A stretch of 64,000 nucleotides of DNA from Manis javanica (Eukaryota > Chordata > Mammalia > Pholidota > Manidae), in contig NC_133170.1 in assembly GCF_040802235.1 (NCBI RefSeq), positions 45,083,501 to 45,147,500 of the forward strand, read 5' to 3'. Below the pieces are notes generated by a model. The model saw only the letters and a program-made list of their open reading frames with translations. It searched no databases and had not been told where the DNA came from. Position 1 is the stretch's first letter. The number at the start of each line of letters is the position of its first letter. This document shows, piece after piece, positions 9,459-45,908 of the stretch. A program made the position numbers and the translations under genes.

Positions 9459-9459
9459 A

Positions 9460-9473
9460 AAATATCAAGTGAG
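9460..9473. repeat. left target-site duplication of the L1
   Basis: AAATATCAAGTGAG is repeated exactly at 18237-18250. The cut site reads TC/AAAATAT on the top strand, close to the L1 endonuclease preference TT/AAAA. Confidence 0.9.
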
Positions 9474-11105
9474 GGGGCGGAGCCAAGATGGCGGCGTGAG
9501 TAGAGCAGTGGAAATCTCCTCCCAAAAACACATAGAGCTATGAAAATATAACAAAGAAAAATCTTCCTAAAATAGAGACCACAGGACACAGGACAACATC
9601 CAGACCACATCCACACCTGCAAGAACCCAGCGCCTTGTGAAGGGGGTAAGATACAAGCCCCAGCCCGGCGGGACCCGAGCGCCCCTCCCCCCGGCTCCCG
9701 GCGGGTGGAGAGAAACCGGAGCGGTTTTTTTTTTTTTTTTTTTTTGGCGAGCGCTTTTTGGAAGCCTTAGAGGGACGGGCCCCCGTTGCTGGGGAGGCAG
9801 GGTGGCGGGACCGGTGAGGAGGTGCCTGGGAACGGCGCCAGAGGACAAAGAATATCCTGCGTTTCTCCCTGCGAGACCTGGGGGCGGGTGCCTGAGACCG
9901 GTGCCTGAGGACGGAGGAGGTCGCGCGTTTTTCCCCTTTTTTTTTTTTCTCTTTTTGGCGAGCGCTTTTTGGAAGCCTTGAAGGGACGGGGACCCCAGTG
10001 CTAGGGAGGCACGGTGGCGGGACTGGTGAGCGGGTGGCTGGGACCGGCGCCTGAGGACAAAGAATATCCCCCGTTTTTCCCTGCGGGACCGGTGGGCGGG
10101 TGCCTGAGACCGGCACTTGAGAACAGAGGAAATCGCGCGTTTTTCCCCTTTTTTTTTTCTCTTTTCTGTGAGTGCTTTTTGGAAGCCTAAAAGGGACAGG
10201 GACCCCGGTGCTAGGGAGGCAGGGCGGCGGGACTGGTGAGCGGGTGCCTGGGACCGGCACCTGAGGACAAAGAATATCCCGCATTTTTCCCTGTGGGACC
10301 GGTGGGTGGGTGCCTGAGACCAGCACCTGAGGACGGAAGAAATCGCGCGTTTTTCCCCTTTTTTTTCTCTCTTTTTGCCGAGTGCTTTTTGGAAGCCTTG
10401 AAGGGACAGGGACCCCGGTGCTAGGGAGGCAGGTCGGCGGGACTGGTGAGTGGGTGCGTGGGACCAGTGCCTGAGGACAAAGAATATTGAGCGTTCCTTC
10501 CCTGAGGGACCGGTGGGTGGGTGCTTTTTGGAAGCCTTGAAAGGACAGGGACCCTGGTGCTAGGGAGACAGGGCAGCAGGACCAGTGAGCGGGTGCCTGG
10601 GACCGGCACCTGAGGACAAAAAAAAAAAAAAAAAAAATCGCTTGTTTTTCCCCTTTTTTTCCTTTTTTTTTTCTCTTTCTTTCTGTTCCCTCTCTCATTG
10701 TTGCTGCTGTTGTTTTGGTTTGGAGAGTGCTTTTTGGAAATCTTAAAGGGGCAGGACAGGTCACTTAGACCAGAAGCAGGGAATCTGGGGATCTCTGGGC
10801 ACTCTAACCCCCTGGGCAGCAGGGAGCACAGAGGCCCCTTACGGAGATAAATAGTCTCCTGGCTGCTCCCCCTCCAACGGGGCTCCACCATTTTGGAGGA
10901 ACAGCCCCAGCCAGGCCAAGCCCACAGCAACAGCGGAGATAAACCCCAAAGCAACTGGGCAGGAAGCAGAAGTCCTGTCTGCGCGCAGCTGCCCAGCACA
11001 AGCCACTAGAGGTCGCTATTCTCCCAGGAAAAGGCTACAAACCAACAAGAAGGGAAGCTCTTCCAGCGGTCACTTGTACCAGCTCTGCAAACTATCTCTA
11101 TCACC
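9474..11105 (+). promoter_or_regulatory. L1 5'UTR / internal promoter
   Basis: The element starts GGGGCGGAGCCAAGATGGCGG. The CAAGATGGC at 9484-9492 matches the YY1 site that sets the start of transcription in primate L1. The following 1.6 kb is GC- and CpG-rich, unlike its surroundings, and includes tandem monomers (9747 to about 10740) and a non-repeated part (10741-11105) leading to ORF1. Mammalian L1 5'UTRs carry an internal RNA polymerase II promoter. I infer the same here from position and composition. Confidence 0.85.
9747..10740 (+). repeat. ~210-bp tandem monomers in the L1 5'UTR
   Basis: Units start with GCGAGCGCTTTTTGGAAGCC or a close variant at 9747, 9958, 10168, 10378 and about 10518, and a terminal fragment starts near 10723. 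The first three are 211, 210 and 210 bp. The fourth is shortened to about 140 bp and the fifth has an A-run expansion at about 10617-10637. Each full unit contains a 'gtgctagggaggcag' block, a 'gaggacaaagaatatcc' block and a pyrimidine run. Rodent L1s also have monomer-type 5'UTRs. Confidence 0.9.
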
Positions 11106-12029
11106 ATGAAAAGGCAAAACTACAGGCAGACAAAGATCACAGAGACAACACCTGAGAAGGAGACAGACCTAACTAGTCTTCCTGAAAAAGAATTCAAAAT
11201 AAAAATCATGAACATGCTGACAGAGATGCAGAGAAAAATGCAAGAGCAATGGGATGAGATGCAGAGAAAAATGCAAGAGCAGTGGGATGAGATGCAGAGA
11301 AAAATGCAAGAGCAGTGGGATGAAGTCCGGAAGGAGATCACAGATGTCAGGAAAGAGATCACAGAAGTGAAACAATCTCTGGAAGGATTTATAAGCAGAA
11401 TGGATAAGATGCAAGAGGCCATTGAAGGAATAGAAGCCAGAGAACAGGAACGTATAGAAGCTGACATAGAGAGAGATAAAAGGATCTCCAGGAATGAAAC
11501 AACACTAAGAGAAATATGTGACCAATACAAAAGGAAAAACATTCGTATTATAGGGATACCAGAAGAGGTAGAAAGAGGAAAAGGGATAGAAAGTGTCTTT
11601 GAAGAAATAATTGCTGAAAACTTCCCCAAACTGGGGGAGGAAATAATCGAACAGACCATGGAATTATACAGAACCCCCAACAGAAAGGATCCAAGGAGGA
11701 CAACACCAAGACACATAATAATTAAAATGGCAAAGATCAAGGACAAGGAAAGAGTTTTAAAGGCAGCTAGAGAGAAAAAGGTCACCTATAAAGGAAAACC
11801 AATCAGGCTAACATCAGACTTCTCAACAGAAACCCTACAGGCCAGAAGAGAATGGCATGATATACTTAATGCAATGAAACAGAAGGGCCTTGAACCAAGG
11901 ATACTGTATCCAGCACGACTATCATTTAAATATGATGGTGGGATCAAACAATTCCCAGACAAGCAAAAGCTGAGGGAATTTGCTTCCCACAAACCACCTC
12001 TACAGGGCATCCTACAGGGACTGCTCTAG
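11106..12029 (+). CDS. L1 ORF1p, RNA-binding chaperone
   Basis: This 307-codon protein forms the trimeric nucleic-acid chaperone that coats L1 RNA. The ATG is in good context (A at -3). Residues 1-35 are a short basic/polar leader. About 35-130 is a coiled coil rich in M, Q, K and E, including three perfect 11-residue repeats of MQRKMQEQWDE (41-51, 52-62, 63-73) encoded by 33-bp units. The RRM begins near residue 145 (NIRIIGIP) and includes the HIIIKMAKIKDKERVLKAA strand-helix. The C-terminal domain contains ARREWHDIL and YPARLSF (Y268). It is somewhat shorter than human ORF1p (338 residues), mainly in the N-terminal half. There is no stop or frameshift. It is separated from ORF2 by 195 bp. 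Confidence 0.95.
   Translation: MKRQNYRQTKITETTPEKETDLTSLPEKEFKIKIMNMLTEMQRKMQEQWDEMQRKMQEQWDEMQRKMQEQWDEVRKEITDVRKEITEVKQSLEGFISRMDKMQEAIEGIEAREQERIEADIERDKRISRNETTLREICDQYKRKNIRIIGIPEEVERGKGIESVFEEIIAENFPKLGEEIIEQTMELYRTPNRKDPRRTTPRHIIIKMAKIKDKERVLKAAREKKVTYKGKPIRLTSDFSTETLQARREWHDILNAMKQKGLEPRILYPARLSFKYDGGIKQFPDKQKLREFASHKPPLQGILQGLL
11226..11324 (+). repeat. 33-bp x3 tandem repeat in ORF1 coiled coil
   Basis: Three head-to-tail units (11226, 11259, 11292) differ from each other by single bases (CAATGG/CAGTGG, GAG/GAA). Each adds 11 residues, a hendecad, so both reading frame and coiled-coil register are kept. Confidence 0.95.
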
Positions 12030-12224
12030 ATGGGAGCACCCCTAAAAAGAGCACAGAACAAAACACACAACATATGAAGAATGGAGGAGGAGGAATAAGA
12101 AGGGAGAGAAGAAAAGAATCTCCAGACAGTGTATATAACAGCTCAATAAGCGAGCTAAGTTAGGCAGTAAGATACTAAAGAAGCTAACCTTGAACCTTTG
12201 GTAACCACGAATCTAAAGCCTGCA

Positions 12225-15200
12225 ATGGCAATAAGTACATATCTTTCAATAGTCACCCTAAATGTAAATGGACTTAATGCACCAATCAAAAGACATAGAG
12301 TAATAGAATGGATAAAAAAGCAAGACCCATCTATATGCTGCTTACAAGAAACTCACCTTAAACCCAAAGATAAGCATAGACTAAAAGTCAAGGGATGGAA
12401 AAACATATTTCAGGCAAACAACAGTGAGAAGAAAGCAGGGGTTGCAGTACTAATATCAGACAAAATAGACTTCAAAACAAAGAAAGTAACAAGAGATAAA
12501 GAAGGCCACTACATAATGATAAAGGGCTTAGTCCAACAAGAGGATATAACCATTCTAAATATATATGCACCCAATACAGGAGCACCAGCATATGTGAAGC
12601 AAATACTAACAGAACTAAAGAGGGAAATAGACTGCAATGCATTCATTGTAGGAGACTTCAACACACCACTCACCCCAAAGGATAGATCCACCGGGCAGAA
12701 AATAAGTAAAGACACACAGGCACTGAACAACACACTAGAACAGATGGACCTAATAGACATCTATAGAACTTTACATCCAAAAGCAACAGGATATACATTC
12801 TTCTCAAGTGCACATGGAACATTCTCCAGAATAGACCACATACTAGCTCACAAAAAGAGCCTCAGTAAATTCCACAATATTGAAATTCTACCAACCAATT
12901 TTTCAGACCACAAAGGTATGAAAGTAGAAATAAATTCTACAAAGAAAACAAAAAGGCTCACAAACACATGGAGGCTTAACAACATGCTACTAAATAATCA
13001 ATGGATCAATGAACAAATCAAAATAGAGATCAAGGAATATATAGAAACAAATGACAACAACAACACTAAGCCCCAACTTCTGTGGGATGCAGCGAAAGCA
13101 GTCTTAAGAGGAAAGTATATAGCAATCCAGGCACACTTGAAGAAGGAAGAACAATCCCAAATGAATAGTCTAACATCACAATTATTAAAACTGGAAAAAG
13201 AAGAACAAATGAGGCCTAAAGTCAGCAGAAGGAGGGACATAATAAAGATCAGAGAAGAAATAAACAAAATTGAGAAGAATAAAACAATAGCAAAAATCAA
13301 CGAAACCAAGAGCTGGTTCTTTGAGAAAATAAACAAAATAGATAAGCCTCTAGCCCAACTTATTAAGAGAAAAAGAGAGTCAACACAAATCAACATAATC
13401 AGAAATGAGAATGGAAAAATCACGACAGACTCCACAGAAATACAAAGAATTATTAAAGACTACTATGAAAACCTATATGCCAACAAGCTGGAAAACCTAG
13501 AAGAAATGGACAACTTCCTAGAAAAATACAACCTTCCAAGACTGACCAAGGAAGAAACACAAAAGTTAAACAAACCAATTACAAGCAAAGAAATTGAAAC
13601 AGTAATCAAAAAACTACCCAAGAACAAAACCCCGGGGCCGGACGGATTTACCTCGGAATTTTATCAGACACACAGAGAAGACATAATACCCATTCTCCTT
13701 AAAGTGTTCCACAAAATAGAAGAAGAGGGAATACTCCCAAACTCATTCTATGAAGCCAACATCACCCTAATACCAAAACCAGGAAAAGACCCCACCAAAA
13801 AAGAAAATTACAGACCAATATCCCTGATGAATGTAGATGCAAAAATACTCAATAAAATATTAGCAAACAGAATTCAACAGTATATCAAAAGGATCATACA
13901 CCATGACCAAGTGGGGTTCATCCCAGGGATGCAAGGATGGTACAACATTCGAAAATCCATCAACATCATCCACCACATCAACAAAAAGAAAGACAAAAAC
14001 CACATGATCATCTCCATAGATGCTGAAAAAGCATTTGACAAAATTCAACATCCATTCATGATAAAAACTCTCAGCAAAATGGGAATAGAGGGCAAGTACC
14101 TCAACATAATAAAGGCCATATATGATAAAACCACAGCCAGCATTATACTGAACAGCGAGAAGCTGAAAGCATTTCCACTGAGATCGGGAACCAGACAGGG
14201 ATGCCCACTCTCCCCACTGTTATTTAACATAGTACTGGAGGTCCTAGCCACGGCAATCAGACAAAACAAAGAAATACAAGGAATCCAGATTGGTAAAGAA
14301 GAAGTTAAACTGTCACTATTTGCAGATGATATGATACTGTACATAAAAAACCCTAAAGACTCCACTCCAAAACTACTAGAACTGATATCGGAATACAGCA
14401 AAGTTGCAGGATACAAAATCAACACACAGAAATCTGTAGCTTTCCTATACACTAACAACGAATCAATAGAAAGAGAAATCAGGAAAACAATTCCATTCAC
14501 CATTGCATCAAAAAGAATAAAATACCTAGGAATAAACCTAACCAAGGAAGTGAAAGACTTATACTCTGAAAACTACAAGTCACTCTTAAGAGAAATTAAA
14601 GGGGACACTAATAAATGGAAACTCATCCCATGCTCATGGCTAGGAAGAATTAATATCGTCAAAATGGCCATCCTGCCGAAAGCAATATACAAATTTGATG
14701 CAATCCCTCTCAAATTACCAGCAACATTCTTCAATGAATTGGAACAAATAATTCAAAAATTCATATGGAAACACCAAAGACCCCGAATAGCCAAAGCAAT
14801 CCTGAAAAAGAAGAATAAAGTAGGGGGGATCTCACTCCCCAACTTCAAGCTCTACTACAAAGCCATAGTAATCAAGACAATTTGGTACTGGCACAAGAAC
14901 AGAGCCACAGACCAGTGGAACAGATTAGAGACCCCAGAAATTAACCCAAACATATATGGTCAATTAATATTTGATAAAGGAGCCATGGACATACAATGGC
15001 AAAATGACAGTCTCTTCAACAGATGGTGCTGGCAAAACTGGACAGCTACATGTAGGAGAATGAAACTGGACCATTGTCTAACCCCATATACAAAGGTAAA
15101 CTCAAAATGGATCAAAGACCTGAATGTAAGTCACGAAACCATTAAACTCTTGGAAAAAAACATAGGCAAAAACCTCTTAGACATAAACATGAGTGATCTC

Positions 15201-16040
15201 TTCTTGAACATATCTCCCCGGGCAAGGAAAACAACAGCAAAAATGAGCAAGTGGGACTACATTAAGCTGAAAAGCTTCTGTACAGCGAAAGACACCATCA
15301 ATAGAACAAAAAGGAACCCTACAGTATGGGAGAATATATTTGAAAATGACAGATCTGATAAAGGCTTGACGTCCAGAATATATAAAGAGCTCACACGCCT
15401 CAACAAACAAAAAACAAATAACCCAATTAAAAAATGGGCAGAGGAACTGAACAGACAGTTCTCCAAAAAAGAAATACAGATGGCCAAGAGACACATGAAA
15501 AGATGCTCCACATCGCTAATTATCAGAGAAATGCAAATTAAAACTACAATGAGGTATCACCTCACACCAGTAAGGATAGCTGCCATCCAAAAGACAAACA
15601 ACAACAAATGTTGGCGAGGCTGTGGAGAAAGGGGAACCCTCCTACACTGCTGGTGGGAATGTAAATTAGTTCAACCATTGTGGAAAGCAGTATGGAGGTG
15701 CATCAAAATGCTCAAAACAGACCTACCATTTGACCCAGGAATTCCACTCCTAGGAATTTACCCTAAGAACGCAGCAATCAAGTTTGAGAAAGACAGATGC
15801 ACTCCTATGTTTATCGCAGCACTATTTACAATAGCCAAGAATTGGAAGCAACCTAAATGTCCATCTGTAGATGAATGGATAAAGAAGATGTGGTACATAT
15901 ACACAATGGAATACTACTCAACCATAAGAAGTGGAAAAATCCAACCATTTGCAGCAACATGGATGGAGCTGGAGAGTATTATGCTCAGTGAAATAAGCCA
16001 AGCGGAGAAAGAGAAATACCAAATGATTTCACTCATCTGA
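12225..16040 (+). CDS. L1 ORF2p, endonuclease and reverse transcriptase
   Basis: This 1271-codon protein nicks target DNA and reverse-transcribes L1 RNA. I start at the ATG at 12225 (G at -3 and +4). The open frame extends upstream to a TTG at 12198, which is not a plausible start. With this start, landmarks fall one residue before human ORF2p: N13, E42 (QETH), D144 and N146 (GDFN), D228-H229 (SDHK). The reverse transcriptase FADD motif has its aspartates at 701-702, after the [13 protein letters not shown] block. The C-terminal Cys region is C1129, C1133, H1141, C1142, C1146. No stop or frameshift is present and the length is close to human (1275). With ORF1 also intact, the element has the coding capacity of a mobile L1. 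Activity itself is not shown. Confidence 0.95.
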
Positions 16041-16412
16041 GGAGTATAGGAACAAAGGAAAAACTGAAGGAACAAAACAGCAGCAGAATTACAGAACCCA
16101 AAAATGGACTAACAGGTACCAAAGGGAAAGGAACTGGGGAGGATGGGTGGGCAGGGAGGGATAAGGGGGGGGGAAGAAGAAGGGGGGTATTAAGATTAGC
16201 ATGCATGGGGGGGAGGGAGAAAGGGGAGGGTGGGCTGCACAACACAGAGAGGACAAGTAGTGACTCTACCACATTTTGCTAAGCTGATGGACAGTAACCG
16301 TAATGTGGTTGTTAAGGGGGACCTGATATAGGGGAGAGCATAGTAAACATAGTATTCTTCAGGTAAGTGTAGATTAAAAATTTAAAAAAAAAAAAGAAAG
16401 AAAGAAAGAAAA
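16041..16412 (+). other. L1 3'UTR with G-runs and first A-tract
   Basis: After the ORF2 stop come L1-type 3'UTR blocks. Two G-run clusters follow (about 16136-16190 and 16206-16233) that could form G-quadruplexes, as in other mammalian L1 3'UTRs. The L1 3' end proper, TGTAGATTAAAAATTTAAA, runs into an A-tract and (GAAA)n at about 16380-16412. Two other L1s in this window end in TTTAATAAAA or CTTAATAAAA at this place, giving AATAAA. Here that hexamer is lost. Confidence 0.8.
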
Positions 16413-16577
16413 GGGGGGTTACTCCTTAACAGGATAAAACTATTGGTAAATCAAAGATCAACGCATGCTTTAAATATCCTTAATGTTGATCACTTAAAGG
16501 GTGTCAGATGATCAGCTATGGAGGTACTCTTTTCTGATAATATTCCTTTCTCTTAATTAAAAAAAAAAAAAAAAAAA
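16413..16577 (+). other. unassigned segment ending in second A-tract
   Basis: About 145 bp between the L1 3' A-tract and a second pure A-run (about 16560-16577). It matches nothing else I recognised in the window. Being bounded on both sides by A-tracts, it looks like a first 3' transduction, with the later retroviral piece added behind it. Confidence 0.55.
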
Positions 16578-17895
16578 GCAGTTACTGTGTGCTGACCTCC
16601 AATGAGTTCTGCACAGTGGTATAGAGGGCATGTCAAAGTGTGGGCAAAGGGTCTGTTTGTTTCTAGGCAGAAGATCAAGGCCTAGCTTGGATACCCAGAA
16701 AATGAACTAAGATACGATATGAGGAGGAGCTTCCGGCATCAGCACTCTCTGGAGGACTCGTGCCGGGGGATGATCATCAAAAAGCCTCCACAGGGATCTG
16801 GACGATGCTGCGGTTGTGGCTGCATCCAGCCCACCGTCTCCTGGACTTGCCATAAGAAGGAGGAGGGAGATGTCTAGGCTGGCATGTGCATACAGTGAGA
16901 CAACGAATTTGACTGGATCTGTACTGTTGGAACTCAACCAGGAGTTGGGAGGGGTGCATGTTGTAGCACCCCAAAATCTCATGACTATAGACTATCTATG
17001 GTTAAAAGAACATATGGGATGTGAACAGATCCCAGAAATGGGCTGCTTTAATTTGTCTGATGGTTCAAGTACAGTTCGAAAATATCCATCATATCATAGA
17101 TAAATTTTCACAAATGCCTAGGGTGCCTAAATGGTTTTCTTGGCTTCACTGGAGATGGCTGGTAATTATAGATTTGCTTTGTTTATGTCACCGTATTCCT
17201 ATTATGTTAATATGTGTGTGCAAATTAGTTAGTAGTTTAAAACCTATACATACTTAAGGTACTCTACAAGAAGATACGTCAAAGAAATAATCAATCCTCT
17301 CATGTTTTCTTCCATATGCTACATCTATAGCTTTTCTTCTTCCTTCCTAATTACAAACCTTAAATAGAATTCGTGCCTCATATCGAATTTACCGAGTATC
17401 ATAATTCCTCCAGGTGGTAAAGATACCTCGAGACAAGTGCTGGGCATAGAAGCCACAGGGCATAAATCTGCAAAGAAGTTAAAAGCTAACCTTTGCAAAC
17501 AATATGGCTTCTCTCTCACTTACCAACTTTACATTTCCCTGTATGGCCCCGGAAGATGACTGGTTAGCCAGAGACGGGTAAGATTCCTCAAGGGAGGAAC
17601 AACCTAAGACAGGCACAGTCGCAGGGGGGCCATCAGGTGAGAATTTGGGGATCAACAGAGGTGAGGCTCAGAACCTCACCCCCCCTGCTTTGAGAGAAAT
17701 CTTCTGCATCCGTGGATGTCTTGCTGCCCTTGTCTAGCCTGGATTAATACTTAGTCCATAGGCACACACCTGATCATCTGATCATCTACATTTGCCTTCT
17801 TACAGCACTAAACTATGTTTTCTACCTTTATCTTGCATCTACCTACCACTTCAGCATTTTATTAAAAATAAAAATAATAATAATAATAGGAGAAA
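16578..17895 (+). pseudogene. endogenous retrovirus env (TM) remnant in L1 tail
   Basis: A decayed retroviral envelope segment. One frame (16816-17103) carries a stretch like the ectodomain of a gamma/D-type transmembrane subunit, including IDYLWLKEHMGCE. There a Cys, six residues later, is followed by Gly-Cys where such proteins usually have a Cys pair. The reading then continues in another frame (17021-17257) with a Trp-rich membrane-proximal stretch and a hydrophobic membrane-spanning run. The shift and the absence of the SU part make it non-functional. Sequence from about 17475 to 17895 is non-coding and ends in an A/T-rich (AATAAT)n and AGGAGAAA purine stretch that could be a polypurine tract before the LTR. 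Confidence 0.65.
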
Positions 17896-18017
17896 TGTGG
17901 GATCAACATATAAATCAAGTACAAAAATCAAATGAATATTCATATTTGACCTGATGGTTTATAGGTCATATTGCATGATCAAAACCGAAAGTTTCTGTGA
18001 TGAATGCCCTTGTACTG

Positions 18018-18074
18018 TTCACCATGTAAGAATTTATTCACTCTGTAAGAATTCGTTCACCATGTAAGAACTTG
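18018..18074 (+). repeat. 3 x 19-bp direct repeats in LTR U3
   Basis: TTCACCATGTAAGAATTTA, TTCACTCTGTAAGAATTCG and TTCACCATGTAAGAACTTG lie end to end. They are also present in the 42-kb copy. U3 tandem repeats are often enhancer elements. Any such role here is inference. Confidence 0.8.
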
Positions 18075-18194
18075 TTCGTTATGCTTCAGAAGATTGGAGA
18101 CTGACGAGAATTAGGCTTGAGATGGATTAATGATTGTACATTGAGCATTGACCCCCCTATACTGAATTTTATTGTTGTTAACAACCATTTGATC

Positions 18195-18200
18195 AATAAA
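18195..18200 (+). terminator. poly(A) signal used by the chimeric L1
   Basis: AATAAA ends 18 bases before the terminal A-run at 18219, so this signal defined the 3' end of the inserted RNA. The matching signal in the 42-kb copy is at 42486-42491. Confidence 0.85.
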
Positions 18201-18236
18201 TATGAGAGATGCCCTCTCAAAAAAAAAAAAAAAAAA

Positions 18237-18250
18237 AAATATCAAGTGAG
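18237..18250. repeat. right target-site duplication of the L1
   Basis: This exact copy of the left duplication is joined to the end of the poly(A) run, so its first A residues cannot be separated from the tail. Because it lies after the retroviral segment, that segment was part of the inserted RNA. Confidence 0.9.
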
Positions 18251-19362: not shown

Positions 19363-20198
19363 TACCATTTGACCCAGAATCTCACTCCTAGGGATATACC
19401 CAAAGAATACAACTTCTCAGATTCAAAAAGACATCTGCACTCCTATGTTTATCGCAGCACTTTTTACAATAGCCAAAAAATGGAAGCAACCTAAGTGTCC
19501 ATCTGTAGATGAATGGATAAAGAAGATATGCCCTCTTGTCATTGTTAGTGCAAGAATTGTTTGAACAAAATCATGACAGTGAATGTTTTACATACTGGTT
19601 GCTGTTGGTGTTCATTAAAAAGGAGGGTTTGTTTCTGGGGCATTTTTTCTTTCTATGATTTGCTTCAATAACTACAAAGGCTACTATCAATGGAATATTA
19701 TTCCATTGGAATATATACAATGGAATATTATTCAGCCATAAGAAAGAAACAAATCCTACTATTTGCAACAACATGGAAGGAGCTAGAGGGTATTATGCTC
19801 AGTGAAATAAGCCAGGCAGAGAAAGACAAGTACCAAATGACTTCCCTCATTTGTGGAGTATAACAATGAAGCAAAACTGAAGGAACAAAATAGCAGCAGA
19901 CTCACAGACTCCAAGAATCAACTAGTGGTTACCAAAGGGGAGGGGTGTGGGAGGGAGATAGGGATTGAGGGGTATTATGTTGGTACACATGGTGTGGGGG
20001 GTCATGGGAGAACAGTGTATCACAGAGAAGGTACATAGTGGATCTCTGGCAACTTGCTGCACTGATGAACAGTGACTGCATTGGGGTGTGGGTGGAGACT
20101 TGATAATATGGGTAAATGTAGTAACCACATTGTTTTTTCATGTGAAACCTTCAGAAGAGTGTGTATCAATCATACTTTAATAAAAAAAAATTTTTTAA
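19363..20198 (+). mobile_element. 5'-truncated L1 interrupted by an inverted duplication
   Basis: This copy holds the last part of ORF2 and the 3'UTR of an L1, from TACCATTTGACCC to TTTAATAAAAAAAAA. It is flanked by the duplication ATGTATTTTGG (19352-19362 and 20199-20209). L1 homology stops at about 19526 and resumes at about 19690-19710. The 163 bp between is an inverted copy of DNA from 20606-20768. The reading frame is broken and it codes for nothing intact. Confidence 0.85.
19527..19689. repeat. left arm of 163-bp inverted duplication
   Basis: This is the reverse complement of 20606-20768 over all 163 positions, with no gap and one mismatch that I could find (T versus C within the GGGGCAT(T/C)TTTTC block). 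It lies inside an L1 fragment, so it is the derived copy. Confidence 0.9.
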
Positions 20199-20209
20199 AT
20201 GTATTTTGG

Positions 20210-23200
20210 CCATTTCTAGAGTCAACTTGACCATCTAAAGAAGGAAGCCTTCTCAAAACTGAGAAGAGGGAAGAGAAGATGCTCAGACTGAAGGTAATTC
20301 TTGGTCCTTCCACACCTGAGCATTGATGACCAGCAAGGGAATTCTTCAGATTCTGTGACCCTTTATAACCTGCACAGACTTCTAATCAAGGTGCACATAC
20401 CAGGGTTTTCCTGTGCAGAACCTGCCTTCTATCACCATTCATAATTTGGATAAGCTATAAATTCATTCCTGGAAGTAAAAGCCTTGTGGGCTGCCTGAGG
20501 ATGATATATCTACATATCCACCTTTCACTGGAAGTCATGATGACACTCTTAGAGCTGCTAAGTAGGCCATGGAGACTTGCCATATAAATGATTCATTTCA
20601 CTTTCTGATAGTAGCCTTTGTAGTTATTGAAGCAAATCATAGAAAGAAAAGATGCCCCAGAAACAAACCCTCCTTTTTAATGAACACCAACAGCAACCAG
20701 TATGTAAAACATTCACTGTCATGATTTTGTTCAAACAATTCTTGCACTAACAATGACAAGAGGGCATAAGTGATATCCTTTGGCTGTGGAGGCAGTGGTC
20801 TAAATAAGTATGCCATTAGCTAAACTACGTGCAAACCCAGGACAGCATTAGTGAAGGGAGAAAGTACAACAAAAGGAATAAGGACGAGATATTTTAAATA
20901 TCTGTTGCTATCTTCCACTCCTGCACTGCCAACTTTCTATTGCTTTTACTGGGTTTGGTTTTGCTCAGAATTTATTATAGACTGAGATAAGAGATGCAGT
21001 TATGTCCTTCATGACTTTCAGTCCAATGTGAATTGGCAACTCCACTGATAATAGTTGGTGAAGTCAACTTTCTGATTGACTGGATGAATGACATACTGTG
21101 TGGTGTATACTCAGGGTGGTCAGAAATACTGAGCACTTTTCTGCACACATGCAACTATGTGAGTGGCTTGTGTGGTTTGCTATAAGAAAGCAGTTTTATT
21201 CCTAAGAAGATAGGAGAAGTAATCCTTTAATGCAGGAATAGTAAACCAGCTCAGCTTTTATTCACCCTCACACATTATTACAGATGAAAAAATTAAGGAC
21301 AACACAGTAATTGACTATTTAATTGTTATTCTGCTGGTGAGAGTCTACAATGGACTTCTGTCTTTGAACACTTCATGATGCTATCCTGCATACAAGTAGT
21401 TATTAATACAGTGTCACCCATGTACAGAAAGGTAGTACTATAAACGAATTCAAATTTAAAGGAAGGGGTCTCTAGACATACTGAGTCATCTTTTTGCTTT
21501 GTGATCTGATTTCTTTAGGAAAGTTGAAACATTATGTGGTGTGGGTATAGAAACAACAATATTAATTTAAAATGTAATCATAAGGGAAACATAATGGCTC
21601 TATCTACCATGTATTGGTTCTGTGCTTTAGAAACTTACATGGGTACAGCCAAAATAAACTCTGAGTAATTTTATTTCTTAAAACTTCTTTGTCTTTTAAC
21701 TTTTAATCCTTTGTTTCATTATTTCCAGCTCTCTTCTAATTTCCAAATGGGTATAAACACTCTCTTGGCTAAACAGTTCCTTGGCAGAAAAATATGTAGC
21801 ACCTTCAAAAAAAACCAAATCATATCTCTGATGATAATGGCAGTGAATTATTGCAATAAATGAGGGGAAACCCAATGGTAAGATTGCAATTCTTTCAGAT
21901 GAGGTAATGATGATAAAAACTGCCAAGAACCACCTGCGTGTTTGCTTATATGAACAGAGCCACCACTCTTCAAAGCTTAGGCCCAGTGAGAAGAGCAATT
22001 TCTCATGTATAATCACCTGTTTTCTCAGAAGAGAAATAGAGTACTTCCCCAATGACTGTTTCCCGTTTGTCTGGATGATGTGGATGAAGTACAACCATGC
22101 TTTTTCCAGAGGCATTTGGCTCTTGCAATGCATTTATATTTGTTTCAATTGAAATCAGAGATGCTTTCTCTATCACATCCTTGCCATGGGTGTGATGCAT
22201 GGGAAGAGATATATAACCATAAAGTCAGACCTCCCTGAGGGATTTTCAGAGCACCACTGCTGACCAATCTGAATTATTGATCTTTATTCATGAAAAAAGT
22301 TCCCCAAGGAAAGGATATAGCAGTCTAAACTACAATAGATGTGGATCTGATGTTGATAAATATGTGGAGTGAGGGTAAACAATCACAGAGAATCCACTCT
22401 AAGTTCTGTGGTTAGGCTTCATCCTTTATTAGGTAGTGAGTAAAAGACAACTGATGACCACAACTCCAATTTGAGAGACCATTTAAACAAAAATGGTTCC
22501 ATAGCGAAGTGAGGCAGAAGGGATTTAGGTATTTCTGAGTTTTCTCATATGGCTGATGGAGAAAATATGGCTGATTTGTTTGTTCCCAGCAAATCATTAG
22601 TTAGTAATGCCTTGTGATTCAGGACTCTTGTGTCCCACAGGCCCTGACTGTGGACTGGCTCATTCACTTTGGTGAAAATGGGGAAGAACAGTGAAAGCAC
22701 ATTGTAGTGAGATTCATCAATTAACACCAAGTTCTCCAACAGAAAGAGAGGTTTTCTCATGTGTAAAGGTTGTTGGATAAAGGTTGTCAGGCTAACTTAT
22801 AGTGAAAGATCAAAATATTTGACAAAGCAGAAAAAGGAAGCTCAAGTTCAACACAGTCAGAAGCTTGTCACACGGGACACATGCAACCCACTGAACAATC
22901 AGCACATGAGCAACTCTCCAGCTGACTGAACTAGCAGCGTCTGTGGGTGAAAAAAAGAAACATTTGCTAACACCAGGCAGTAGAGATTGTGGCAAATGCA
23001 AAACTCATCAAATGCTCCCCCAAACAAATTTAATGCTGACCAACATGTTTAACTGGAGATGTATGGTTTGAAATTCTTTTTACCAAATACCGATGGAATA
23101 CTTTTTCCTTCTGCCTGCTTCCTCCCTTTTTTACTTTCTTTTTTTTACATTTTTATTTCTGTTTTCTTTTGGTGGTTTGTTTAACAAAAGATATATAAAG

Positions 23201-41772: not shown

Positions 41773-42522
41773 AGTAAAAAGCTAACCTTTTCAAACAATA
41801 TGGCTTCTCTCTCACTTACCAACTTTACATTTCCCTGTATGGCCCCGAAAGATGACTGGTTAGCCAGAGACGGGTAAGATTCCTCAAGGGAGGAACAACC
41901 TAAGACAGGCACAGTCGCAGGGGGGCCATCAGGTGAGAAATTGGGGATCAACAGAGGTGAGGCTCAGAACCTCATCCCCCCTGCTTTGAGAGAAATCTTC
42001 TGCATCCGTGGATATTTTGCTGCCCTTGTCTAGCTTGGATCAATACTTAGTCCATAGGCACACACCTGATCATCTACATTTGCCCTCTTACAGCACTAAA
42101 CTATGTTTTCTACCTTTATCTTGCATCTACCTACCACTTCAGCATTTTATTAAAAATAAAAATAATAATAATAATAAAGGGAGAAATGTGGGATCCACAT
42201 ATAAATCAAGTATAAAAATCAAACTAATATTCATATTTGACCTGATTGTTTATAGTTCATAATGCGTGATCAAAACCGAATGTTTCTGTGATGAATGCCC
42301 TTGTACTGTTAACCATGTAAGAATTTATTCACTATGTAAGAATTCGTTCACCATGTAAGAACTTGTTCGTTATGCTTCAGAAGATTGGAGACTGATGAGA
42401 ATTAGGCTTGAGATGGATTAATTATTGTACATTGAGCATTGACCCCCCTATACTGAATTTTATTGTTGTTAACAACCATTTGATCAATAAATATGAGAGA
42501 TGCCCTCTCAAAAAAAAAAAAA
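41773..42522 (+). mobile_element. second copy of the ERV-tailed L1 3' end (5'-truncated insertion)
   Basis: About 740 bp closely matching 17475-18218 of the chimeric L1, with only scattered substitutions. It includes the pre-LTR region, the TGTGGGATC LTR start (42187), the triple U3 repeat and AATAAA (42486-42491), and ends in poly(A). It is flanked by AAAAAAGGCGCTTTGTGA at 41755-41772 and 42517-42534. No L1 coding sequence is included. It therefore moved by target-primed reverse transcription as a 5'-truncated copy of a transcript ending in this tail. It lies in the ZNF385-type intron, antisense to that gene. The 41643-41951 minus-strand open frame is incidental. Confidence 0.92.
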
Positions 42523-44180: not shown

Positions 44181-45631
44181 CTGACAGATGTGTTCATTAG
44201 TTTCTGGTTTAGCTTAAACTGGCTTCAGCTGTAGAGCTATAATGTCACTCAACTAGAAAGTCATGAATGTAAAAGGGGGAAATGAGGGATCAGGCGACTG
44301 CTGTCCTGTTTTGCCTGTGACTAAGGAAGTTTCTGAGACATGGGATGTCAGTACTAAAACGGGGAAAGGCCTCAGCAAGTCTGGACGAGTTGATCACCCT
44401 AAGGGAGAATTCGGAATAAGTTAGGAAACAAGTCTTAAGAAATATTTTAGATGCTCCCTAAGCAAGTAATGAACTTTTCTACTGAAAGATGCATTTTTTG
44501 GAGATACATGTGATAATCAATGAGGAAGGATGGAGATGCATTCAGATCCTTGTAGCAGAGAAAAATAACTAGAGCGTTTAATTAATCTTCCACTGAGCAG
44601 GTAAGCCCGAGGTTCTTTTGTAGGAATATAGTCTTCTCTCCCAAACCGAGCCCGTATGTTTCCAAGGAATTCGCTCCCTTCTAGTGCTTACAGACTGTAA
44701 GCTTCGGCCCTTCCCCAAGTAAATTAATCCCAAGCAATTTAATTCAAAACTAAGTCAATCAGAAGGCAGGGTGGCTAAACCTTTGGCAGAGTTAAATGGT
44801 GGGCCTGGTGCTGTACGTATAACTCATAAACCAAGAAGAAATGGTGAGTTTTGTAAGAATTTGTAAATAAATATTAATAAATAATAAAGTTTGATGAATA
44901 ATGAAATATTTCTGATAAATACAGCAAAAGAAGGGGACAAAAAGAAAATCAATTTATTCCAAAGCTATTTTAAATGACTTGGATGCCACTAGGTTAGGAA
45001 GGAGCCCTTTGTAGTCTTCTAGCAGAGACTTTTGTTTTTCTTCCGTAAAGCAGAAGAAAAAATAATCTTTCTAACTCTATGAATGGTAATTCCCTGGCTC
45101 TAAGAGCTCTGGGAAGGGAACAAAGTGGTGCATACCACAGTAGCAGTTCCCATTTCCTTTATGAGAAGACCTGTGTATTGAAAAACCCCATTCGAAATTC
45201 TGCAAAAAGCAAGATGTGGTTTTCAGAGATTCTCTTACCTGATAGTTATCTGTTCAGTATATACGGTGAGAGTCTTCTCCTTCTGGCCATGTGCTTTATG
45301 TTAAGAGTAAGGGTTTTGCCTTGTGTCCTAACTTTCATAACACCTAACTATTAAGAACTATGTGTGATGAATCATGACTCTTGAAAGCTTTTACTAATTG
45401 AAACTGAACATGACGTGAGGCAGACCATGTCTTCTGGCGAGTGAACTCAAGATTGTGTAGTGAACTGAGAGGGTGGAGGTGGTCTTACCAGGCCCCACCC
45501 AGGACACAGATTCTGGCTGCATAAGCCTGTTAGGCAGCCCATACAATAAAAAGGAAGTGAAAACTGGCAGCGATTCATTTTATTTTTTTTTAATACATAG
45601 AGCTGTCTTGAAGATAAGAAAGCAAGATCTC

Positions 45632-45908
45632 CTATACAGAATTTTATTGTGGTTAACAACCATTTGACCAATAAATATGAGAGATGCCCTCACACACACA
45701 AAAAAGTACATACTTCCAATTGTAAAATAAATAAGTAACCGGGATGTAATGTATAGCATAATGAATATAGTCAAAATATTGTAACAACTTGGTATGGTGA
45801 TAGCTGGTACCTAGAATTATCATGTATATAAATGTTAAATCACTGTGTTGTACACCTGAAACTAATGTAATACTGTGTATCAACTACCCTTCAATAAAAA
45901 AAAAAAAT
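45632..45908 (+). mobile_element. composite insertion: ERV tail stub joined to an L1 3' end
   Basis: The insertion is flanked by AGAAAGCAAGATCTC at 45617-45631 and 45909-45923. Its first ~60 bp (to about 45690) match the last part of the chimeric L1 tail (GAATTTTATTG...GAGAGATGCCCTC) including AATAAA. A short CA/A tract follows. From about 45706 it is a conventional L1 3' end ('ggtacctagaattatcatg', 'cactgtgttgtacacctgaaac', 'ttcaataaaaaaa'). The outer ends share one duplication and no inner duplication is visible, so both parts arrived in one event. Confidence 0.8.

Follow-up and report, generated by a model that had tools for sequence, protein, structure and literature searches.

An LTR-terminated 3' end in a young L1 family of the Malayan pangolin

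The window analysed here is a stretch of 64,000 nucleotides from the Malayan pangolin, Manis javanica (NCBI RefSeq assembly GCF_040802235.1, contig NC_133170.1, positions 45,083,501 to 45,147,500 of the forward strand). It contains an L1 retrotransposon whose 3' end is composed of a remnant of an endogenous retrovirus (ERV) and a segment resembling a long terminal repeat (LTR). Comparison with copies elsewhere in the genome makes it very probable that this element belongs to a dominant young L1 family of the species, and that this family has a standing LTR-terminated 3' end acquired via two serial 3' transductions. A preliminary description of the window had guessed at a lineage of such chimeras. 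Thousands of exact joins between L1 and the retroviral tail bear out that guess, and the chimera belongs to a very large young L1 population, not to an odd branch.

Direct reading of the focal locus gives one 8.76-kb insertion between two identical 15-bp duplications. The sequence AAAATATCAAGTGAG is the target-site duplication at 9459-9473, and its second copy at 18236-18250 comes just after the final A-run. As the preliminary description had stated, this one duplication encloses L1, the env remnant, the U3-R LTR segment and the final poly(A). The parts of the element, with open reading frames (ORFs) and untranslated regions (UTRs) in window coordinates, are as follows.

9459..9473, + strand: 5' target-site duplication, 15 bp, same letters as 18236-18250
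9474..11105, + strand: L1 5'UTR, with about 3.8 copies of a 210-bp GC-rich tandem repeat at 9728-10524
11106..12029, + strand: L1 ORF1, open, with an RNA-binding domain (RBD) and a double-stranded RNA-binding domain (dsRBD)-like domain; 33-bp coiled-coil repeat at 11223-11323
12225..16040, + strand: L1 ORF2, open, with endonuclease and reverse transcriptase domains
16041..16378, + strand: original L1 3'UTR, with a G-rich stretch and ATTAAA at 16373
about 16379..16413, + strand: relic of the original L1 poly(A) end, (A)n(GAAA)n, seen in 8 further loci read
16414..16557, + strand: first transduced stretch (td1), 144 bp, with ATTAAA at 16556
about 16558..16577, + strand: relic of a second poly(A) run
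16578..17895, + strand: second transduced stretch, a remnant of a retroviral env/3' region of about 1.3 kb, with homology to the env transmembrane (TM) protein at 16774-17100
17896..18218, + strand: LTR-like U3-R segment, with AATAAA at 18195 and the cleavage site at 18218
18219..18235, + strand: final poly(A), preceding the duplication
18236..18250, + strand: 3' target-site duplication, by direct reading
16116..16670, + strand: putative GT-AG intron, exactly absent from some copies

The L1 part retains the coding capacity of a mammalian L1. ORF1 has 339 codons from stop to stop, with the ATG at 11106 by reading, and matches PF02994 (9e-27) and PF17490 (4e-20), corresponding to the RBD-like and dsRBD-like domains of mammalian L1. 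ORF2 has 1,289 codons, with the ATG at 12225, and contains the endonuclease (PF03372, 3e-24) and reverse transcriptase (PF00078, 7e-47) domains likewise expected of mammalian L1. The Pfam queries started one codon past each ATG. Stop-to-stop frames and Pfam domains agree with the earlier statement that both ORFs are open. The closest named protein matches of ORF1 are from Manis javanica and M. pentadactyla. The 5'UTR has GC-rich tandem repeats and would be the place of the internal promoter of a mammalian L1. A poly(A) end together with a target-site duplication at an A-rich site, as in mammalian L1, was found by reading at the focal locus and in 15 of 18 other full-length copies. Among 20 loci read at length, both ORFs are open over the full length in 17; these loci were picked for high tail identity, and this share applies to them and not to the genome as a whole. 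The focal element is a full-length L1 that is probably still mobile. It should be mentioned that two of the copies (L021 and L025) lack 33 bases at the coiled-coil repeat of ORF1 (window 11223-11323), and that the ORF is still open in both.

Downstream of the ORF2 stop codon, the L1 3'UTR, an A/GAAA run, td1, an A-run, 1.64 kb of env remnant and LTR-like sequence, and poly(A) follow in this order. Non-L1 sequence lies between the relic of the L1 poly(A) and a second poly(A) within one duplication, which is the arrangement of an L1 3' transduction. In addition, the two internal A-runs are the relics expected from serial 3' transduction, and this leads to the reading of a two-step capture. The preliminary description had proposed an L1-ERV chimeric RNA ending at the LTR poly(A) site. 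The position of the end holds, but the simple fusion is to be replaced by a serial, two-step transduction.

The retroviral nature of the tail is indicated by the region 16774-17100, which matches TM fusion proteins of the avian sarcoma and leukosis virus (ASLV) type in a search of PDB sequences (4jpr, E 7e-7; 5h9c, E 8e-7). The env pieces gave no match in Pfam, and a protein search with the env piece returned 29 short unnamed proteins. The PDB matches support assignment of the middle of the tail to a remnant of retroviral env TM. The end of the tail is considered to be LTR-like and of U3-R type because of its TG start after a purine stretch, the AATAAA near its end and the env TM match. The two upstream poly(A) signals are ATTAAA variants (16373 and 16556), and that of the LTR is AATAAA (18195). 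Two more signal-like words are present at 17861 and 17867.

The chimera recurs throughout the genome. The exact td1-A-run-tail junction was counted 3,738 times, the exact poly(A)-ended tail end 15,784 times, the exact L1 5' end 2,657 times and the exact L1 3' end 3,024 times, and the reversed-pattern control was 0 in each case. These counts cover exact matches, with diverged copies outside them, and the tail-end pattern may include older tail classes. Because the junction recurs 3,738 times against 0 in the control, the chimera is not a product of chance. A 601-bp tail query gave 758 first-look candidates, and all 40 that were scored span the whole query. L1 is joined to the tail in 38 of these 40: the focal copy, all 20 loci fetched at 8 kb and 17 of the 19 read at the junction. 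Within the 20 fetched loci, 18 are at least 98.8% identical to the focal copy over 7.3 kb. According to sliding identity, one locus (L018) combines an older L1 with a young tail end, and the idea that this locus is an older chimera was rejected on this basis. Another (L023) is joined to L1 via a splice-like gap. With an 801-base junction query, 1,483 first-look candidates were obtained, and all 40 that were scored cover it fully at 97-100%.

The same association was found in the opposite direction, starting from the L1 ends. In the first 68.24 Mb of contig C1, an exact tail junction follows 66 of the 86 exact L1 3' ends at a distance of 120-320 bp, and 66 of the 100 exact junctions there are preceded by an exact L1 3' end. 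Among the 20 L1 3' ends that lack such a partner, the first 8 all carry td1, the A-run and the tail, and their junction differs in a base or in the A-run. This means that td1, the A-run and the tail are present at 74 of the 74 checked L1 3' ends of this sample, and a tailless member of the young L1 3'-end type was found at none of these 74 on C1. At the scale of the whole unit, the first 14.83 Mb of C1 contain 14 exact L1 5' ends, 11 of which are followed by an exact tail end at a distance of 7.8-8.8 kb. Of the 23 junctions in this part, 20 are followed by such an end at 1.6-1.95 kb. Two places on this contig show additional tail ends. At C1:2241787-2242560, three exact poly(A)-ended LTR ends stand in a row about 370 bp apart, and at C1:10815654-10816248 an extra one lies 563 bp past a full-length copy. 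Both might represent repeated LTR ends or nested inserts.

Most of the full-length copies bear the mark of independent retrotransposition. The 5' end was located in 18 full-length loci besides the focal one, and in 15 of them the whole unit is enclosed by exact duplications of its own, 11-19 bp long. Fourteen of these duplications were found within 160 bp, and that of L012 (17 bp, 260 bp downstream) was added. As a control, 5' flanks were matched with 3' flanks of different loci, and none of the 240 cross-locus pairings among 16 loci shared more than 10 bp. In L022, approximately 13 extra bases are present between the duplication and the start of L1. The duplication lies 99 bp beyond the end of the tail in L009 and 260 bp beyond it in L012, and these two copies therefore have one more 3' transduction in addition to the two fixed ones. 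Some target sites were used repeatedly. In L016 and L020 (5' flanks L036 and L040), young copies were inserted at the identical AAAAATCAAAC site of older LTR copies. In L012, L018 and L027, the flanking L1 resumes at one ORF2 position (window 14510), so that these are nested insertions into repeated targets.

Among 18 young copies, pairs differ on average by 0.25% in the ORFs and by 0.42% in the tail. At a mammalian substitution rate of 2.2e-9 per year (PMC4643047), these copies would be less than about 1 million years old; the set was chosen by identity, with L018, L023 and L027 left out. The chimeric 3' end itself has persisted for longer, as a young copy nested in an old one demonstrates. 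The young L020 sits inside an older copy of the L1-td1-tail unit, which includes td1 and both A-runs. The identity of this older unit is 95.8% for L1, 92.4% for td1 and 94.1% for the env part. At the same rate it would be roughly 10-25 million years old, an estimate in which subfamily change is mixed. Further chimeras at about 96% were found at L068-L070. The flank of L026 contains an older L1 (86.6%), where the match ends at the A-rich L1 end and td1 is absent. This single example supports the order in which an old tailless L1 preceded the tailed L1.

One copy gives an indication of RNA processing. L023 lacks exactly the stretch 16116-16670, a clean gap of 555 nt that starts with GT and ends with AG. 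The exact join skipping this stretch occurs in 74 copies genome-wide, among which L023 is the only one read. It seems that splicing occasionally takes place in the 3' part of the chimeric RNA and that the product is then retrotransposed.

Several observations weigh against the interpretation given above. Three of the 18 full-length loci (L021, L024 and L027) show no duplication of at least 11 bp in the flank examined. Two of the 40 scored tail matches, L052 and L055, are not joined to L1, which is compatible with 5' truncation, and for 3 of the 14 exact L1 5' ends no exact tail end lies within 10.5 kb. The parental locus was looked for with the exact source pattern, which gave 0 matches. Older poly(A)-ended env/LTR copies exist: 11 of 20 tail ends read share 81-90% identity with that of the focal copy, and given such copies an L1-mobilised env/LTR RNA without L1 may also exist. 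Finally, the downstream part of a retroviral poly(A) signal is normally in U5, and U5 is not copied in the chimeric units. Each new copy therefore depends on sequence within the tail or in the flank for cleavage. As for the structure of L055 (C5:70381201), its young truncated tail starts from 16604 and is joined to a stretch 84% identical to 17289-17596. Other sequence lies upstream of that stretch, which might be a relative of the source provirus or an older tail copy.

The older tail copies are relevant to the alternative that retains some weight, namely that the tail is an independent non-autonomous retroposon, an L1-mobilised env/LTR transcript spreading in trans, for which the join to L1 is one context. 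We regard it as unlikely. It would account for the excess of exact poly(A)-ended tail ends (15,784) over exact junctions (3,738), and also for three older tail copies that were read further. L080 starts within the tail, has a duplication and has no L1 of its own upstream. L082 has a 5' inversion, sits in an old L1 and likewise has no L1 of its own upstream. These two look as if they were moved by the L1 machinery. L076 contains at least 1.0 kb of env/LTR at 85.6% to the focal tail, with its 5' end beyond the stretch read. A query with the tail of L076 gave 39 other scored copies at 94-95%, from 4,262 first-look candidates of any class, and L093 is likewise an older tail copy at this level of identity to L076. 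Copies of the L076 type may represent an earlier tailed L1 branch or an env/LTR retroposon. However, the surplus of 3' ends is compatible with ordinary 5' truncation of L1 and with decay of the longer junction pattern. Furthermore, three exact tail starts that have two non-A bases in front all turned out to be L1-td1 chimeras, and the older unit hosting L020 is itself an L1 chimera.

In 192 copies genome-wide, the tail end runs into a non-A base. Twenty of them were read (15 C, 3 G and 2 T, all on contigs C1 and C2). The idea that they are LTRs continuing into U5 failed for 19, which run into an A-rich end, interrupted in some cases. The sole one without an A-rich end (L086, C1:69455319) could be an LTR continuing into U5.

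It is very improbable that a retrovirus captured L1 as cargo and that the provirus mobilises it. Some ground for this idea comes from the Chinese pangolin, where one provirus has a nearly complete L1 located between env and the 3'LTR (PMC12584738). An ERV is expected to have paired or complete LTRs and duplications of 4-6 bp. The present element has a single LTR-like segment, cut at the poly(A) site of R, and no second LTR copy was detected within it by blastn at E 1e-5. The chimeric units are flanked by long L1-type duplications of 11-19 bp, unlike the proviral ones, and the ends of 15 of the 18 copies contradict the idea. In addition, the intact part is that of the L1 ORFs, and the env part is a fragment. 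A one-off transduction, in which a sole locus joins L1 to the tail and the other tails are proviral, would fit with the small size that L1 3' transduction families can have (14 members in a human family; PMC6425141), but this outcome was looked for and is refuted by the 3,738 exact junctions, the 38 of 40 tail matches joined to L1 and the 74 of 74 L1 3' ends. Dispersal by segmental or satellite duplication, which the high identity of the copies (0.25% in the ORFs of the 18 selected ones) might suggest, is refuted just as firmly, since flanks and target-site duplications differ among the loci read, poly(A) ends are present, and the matches listed fall on 19 of the contigs C1-C20.

The preferred reading of two serial transductions can be described as follows. 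First, transcription of an L1 would have continued beyond its own weak signal, and the transcript would have taken about 144 bp of flank (td1) along to a new site. This L1-td1 copy, or a descendant of it, might then have landed in the env/3'LTR part of an ERV in the same orientation. Its transcripts would run into the LTR and be cleaved at the retroviral R poly(A) site, and ORF2p would reverse transcribe the longer RNA in cis from its poly(A). The progeny would consist of L1, a relic A-run, td1, a second relic A-run, the env remnant, U3-R and poly(A), as in the units observed. Mammalian ORF2p primes on poly(A) and needs no specific 3'UTR sequence. Therefore, the 3' end can shift to a strong poly(A) site farther downstream. 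The LTR site seems to have outcompeted both upstream ATTAAA signals, and might in this way have aided the takeover. A stronger proposal is that a whole lineage of mammalian L1 has the LTR poly(A) site as its standing 3' terminator and has retained it for at least several million years, and that this site drove the takeover either by better termination or by hiding the old 3'UTR from host control. This proposal is possible, with the balance tilted somewhat against it. If it is true, all mobile Malayan pangolin L1 would make LTR-terminated, partly 3'-spliced RNA.

The rest of the window contains a separate tail copy and a few other features.

41773..42522, + strand: 5'-truncated tail-only copy, 95% identical, with its own target-site duplication

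A 61-bp relic of the LTR end, 95% identical, is present at 45631-45691. Beside old L1 fragments, an inverted repeat (19527-19689 and 20606-20768) has arms of 163 nt that are 99% complementary. Rfam and ARAGORN searches of the whole window gave no matches.

The evolution of mammalian L1 is told mainly as turnover of the 5' promoter. In this case, the 3' end of a successful and apparently mobile lineage was rebuilt from an LTR, and this looks like the work of ordinary read-through transduction. Thousands of natural copies are available for asking whether a weak poly(A) signal harms or helps an L1 and whether the 3' sequence affects cis preference. They are also suited to questions on splicing of the 3'UTR and on the host silencing response. 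The Malayan pangolin genome consists of long interspersed nuclear elements (LINE) to 35.41% and of short ones (SINE) to 0.96% (PMC11825179). LTR annotation of pangolin genomes may mistake thousands of L1 3' ends for retroviral insertions. 3' transduction by L1 is already known. The LTR-terminated L1 lineage appears to be new, as none was found described among the titles and opening lines of abstracts of the open-licence literature searched.

Composites of unrelated repeats that are moved by L1 proteins are represented by SVA and LAVA, and SVA includes ERV-derived sequence. The pangolin element is likewise composite and L1-moved. In contrast to SVA and LAVA, which are non-autonomous and without ORFs of their own, it keeps its own intact ORF1 and ORF2: both are open in the focal copy and in the 17 of 20 loci mentioned above.

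Replacement of the 5'UTR is a known pattern of mammalian L1 turnover (PMC5872511). In both cases a non-coding end is exchanged for unrelated sequence and the lineage then expands. The pangolin change differs in being at the 3' end, added outside the old poly(A), and in bringing no new promoter; the available part of that account does not report 3'UTR replacement (PMC5872511).

Among pangolin retroviruses, the gammaretrovirus family MPERV1 has only 2 copies, and no L1 chimera is reported in the accessible part of its description (PMC4643047). ERV-Gamma.b9-Mpen of the Chinese pangolin contains an almost complete L1 between env and the 3'LTR, which was interpreted as an insertion breaking one provirus (PMC12584738). 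Compared by description, this is the arrangement expected at the birthplace or at the landing site of a chimera. The split relevant to the age of the capture in M. javanica is put at about 16.4 million years (PMC12584738). Unlike the L1 family described here, its account, as far as available, gives no lineage and no chimeric RNA (PMC12584738).

The closest likeness in process is with human L1 3' transduction families, in which a signal is read through, downstream DNA is carried along, and this DNA is kept as a tag by the descendants, as in the pangolin (PMC6425141). The same paper reports a spliced 5' transduction begun in an ERV LTR. The human family derived from the chr11 progenitor has 14 members and was called the largest to date in 2019 (PMC6425141). 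Unlike this family, that of the pangolin has thousands of copies, and its tag ends at an LTR poly(A) site and is carried by all 74 of the young 3' ends checked.

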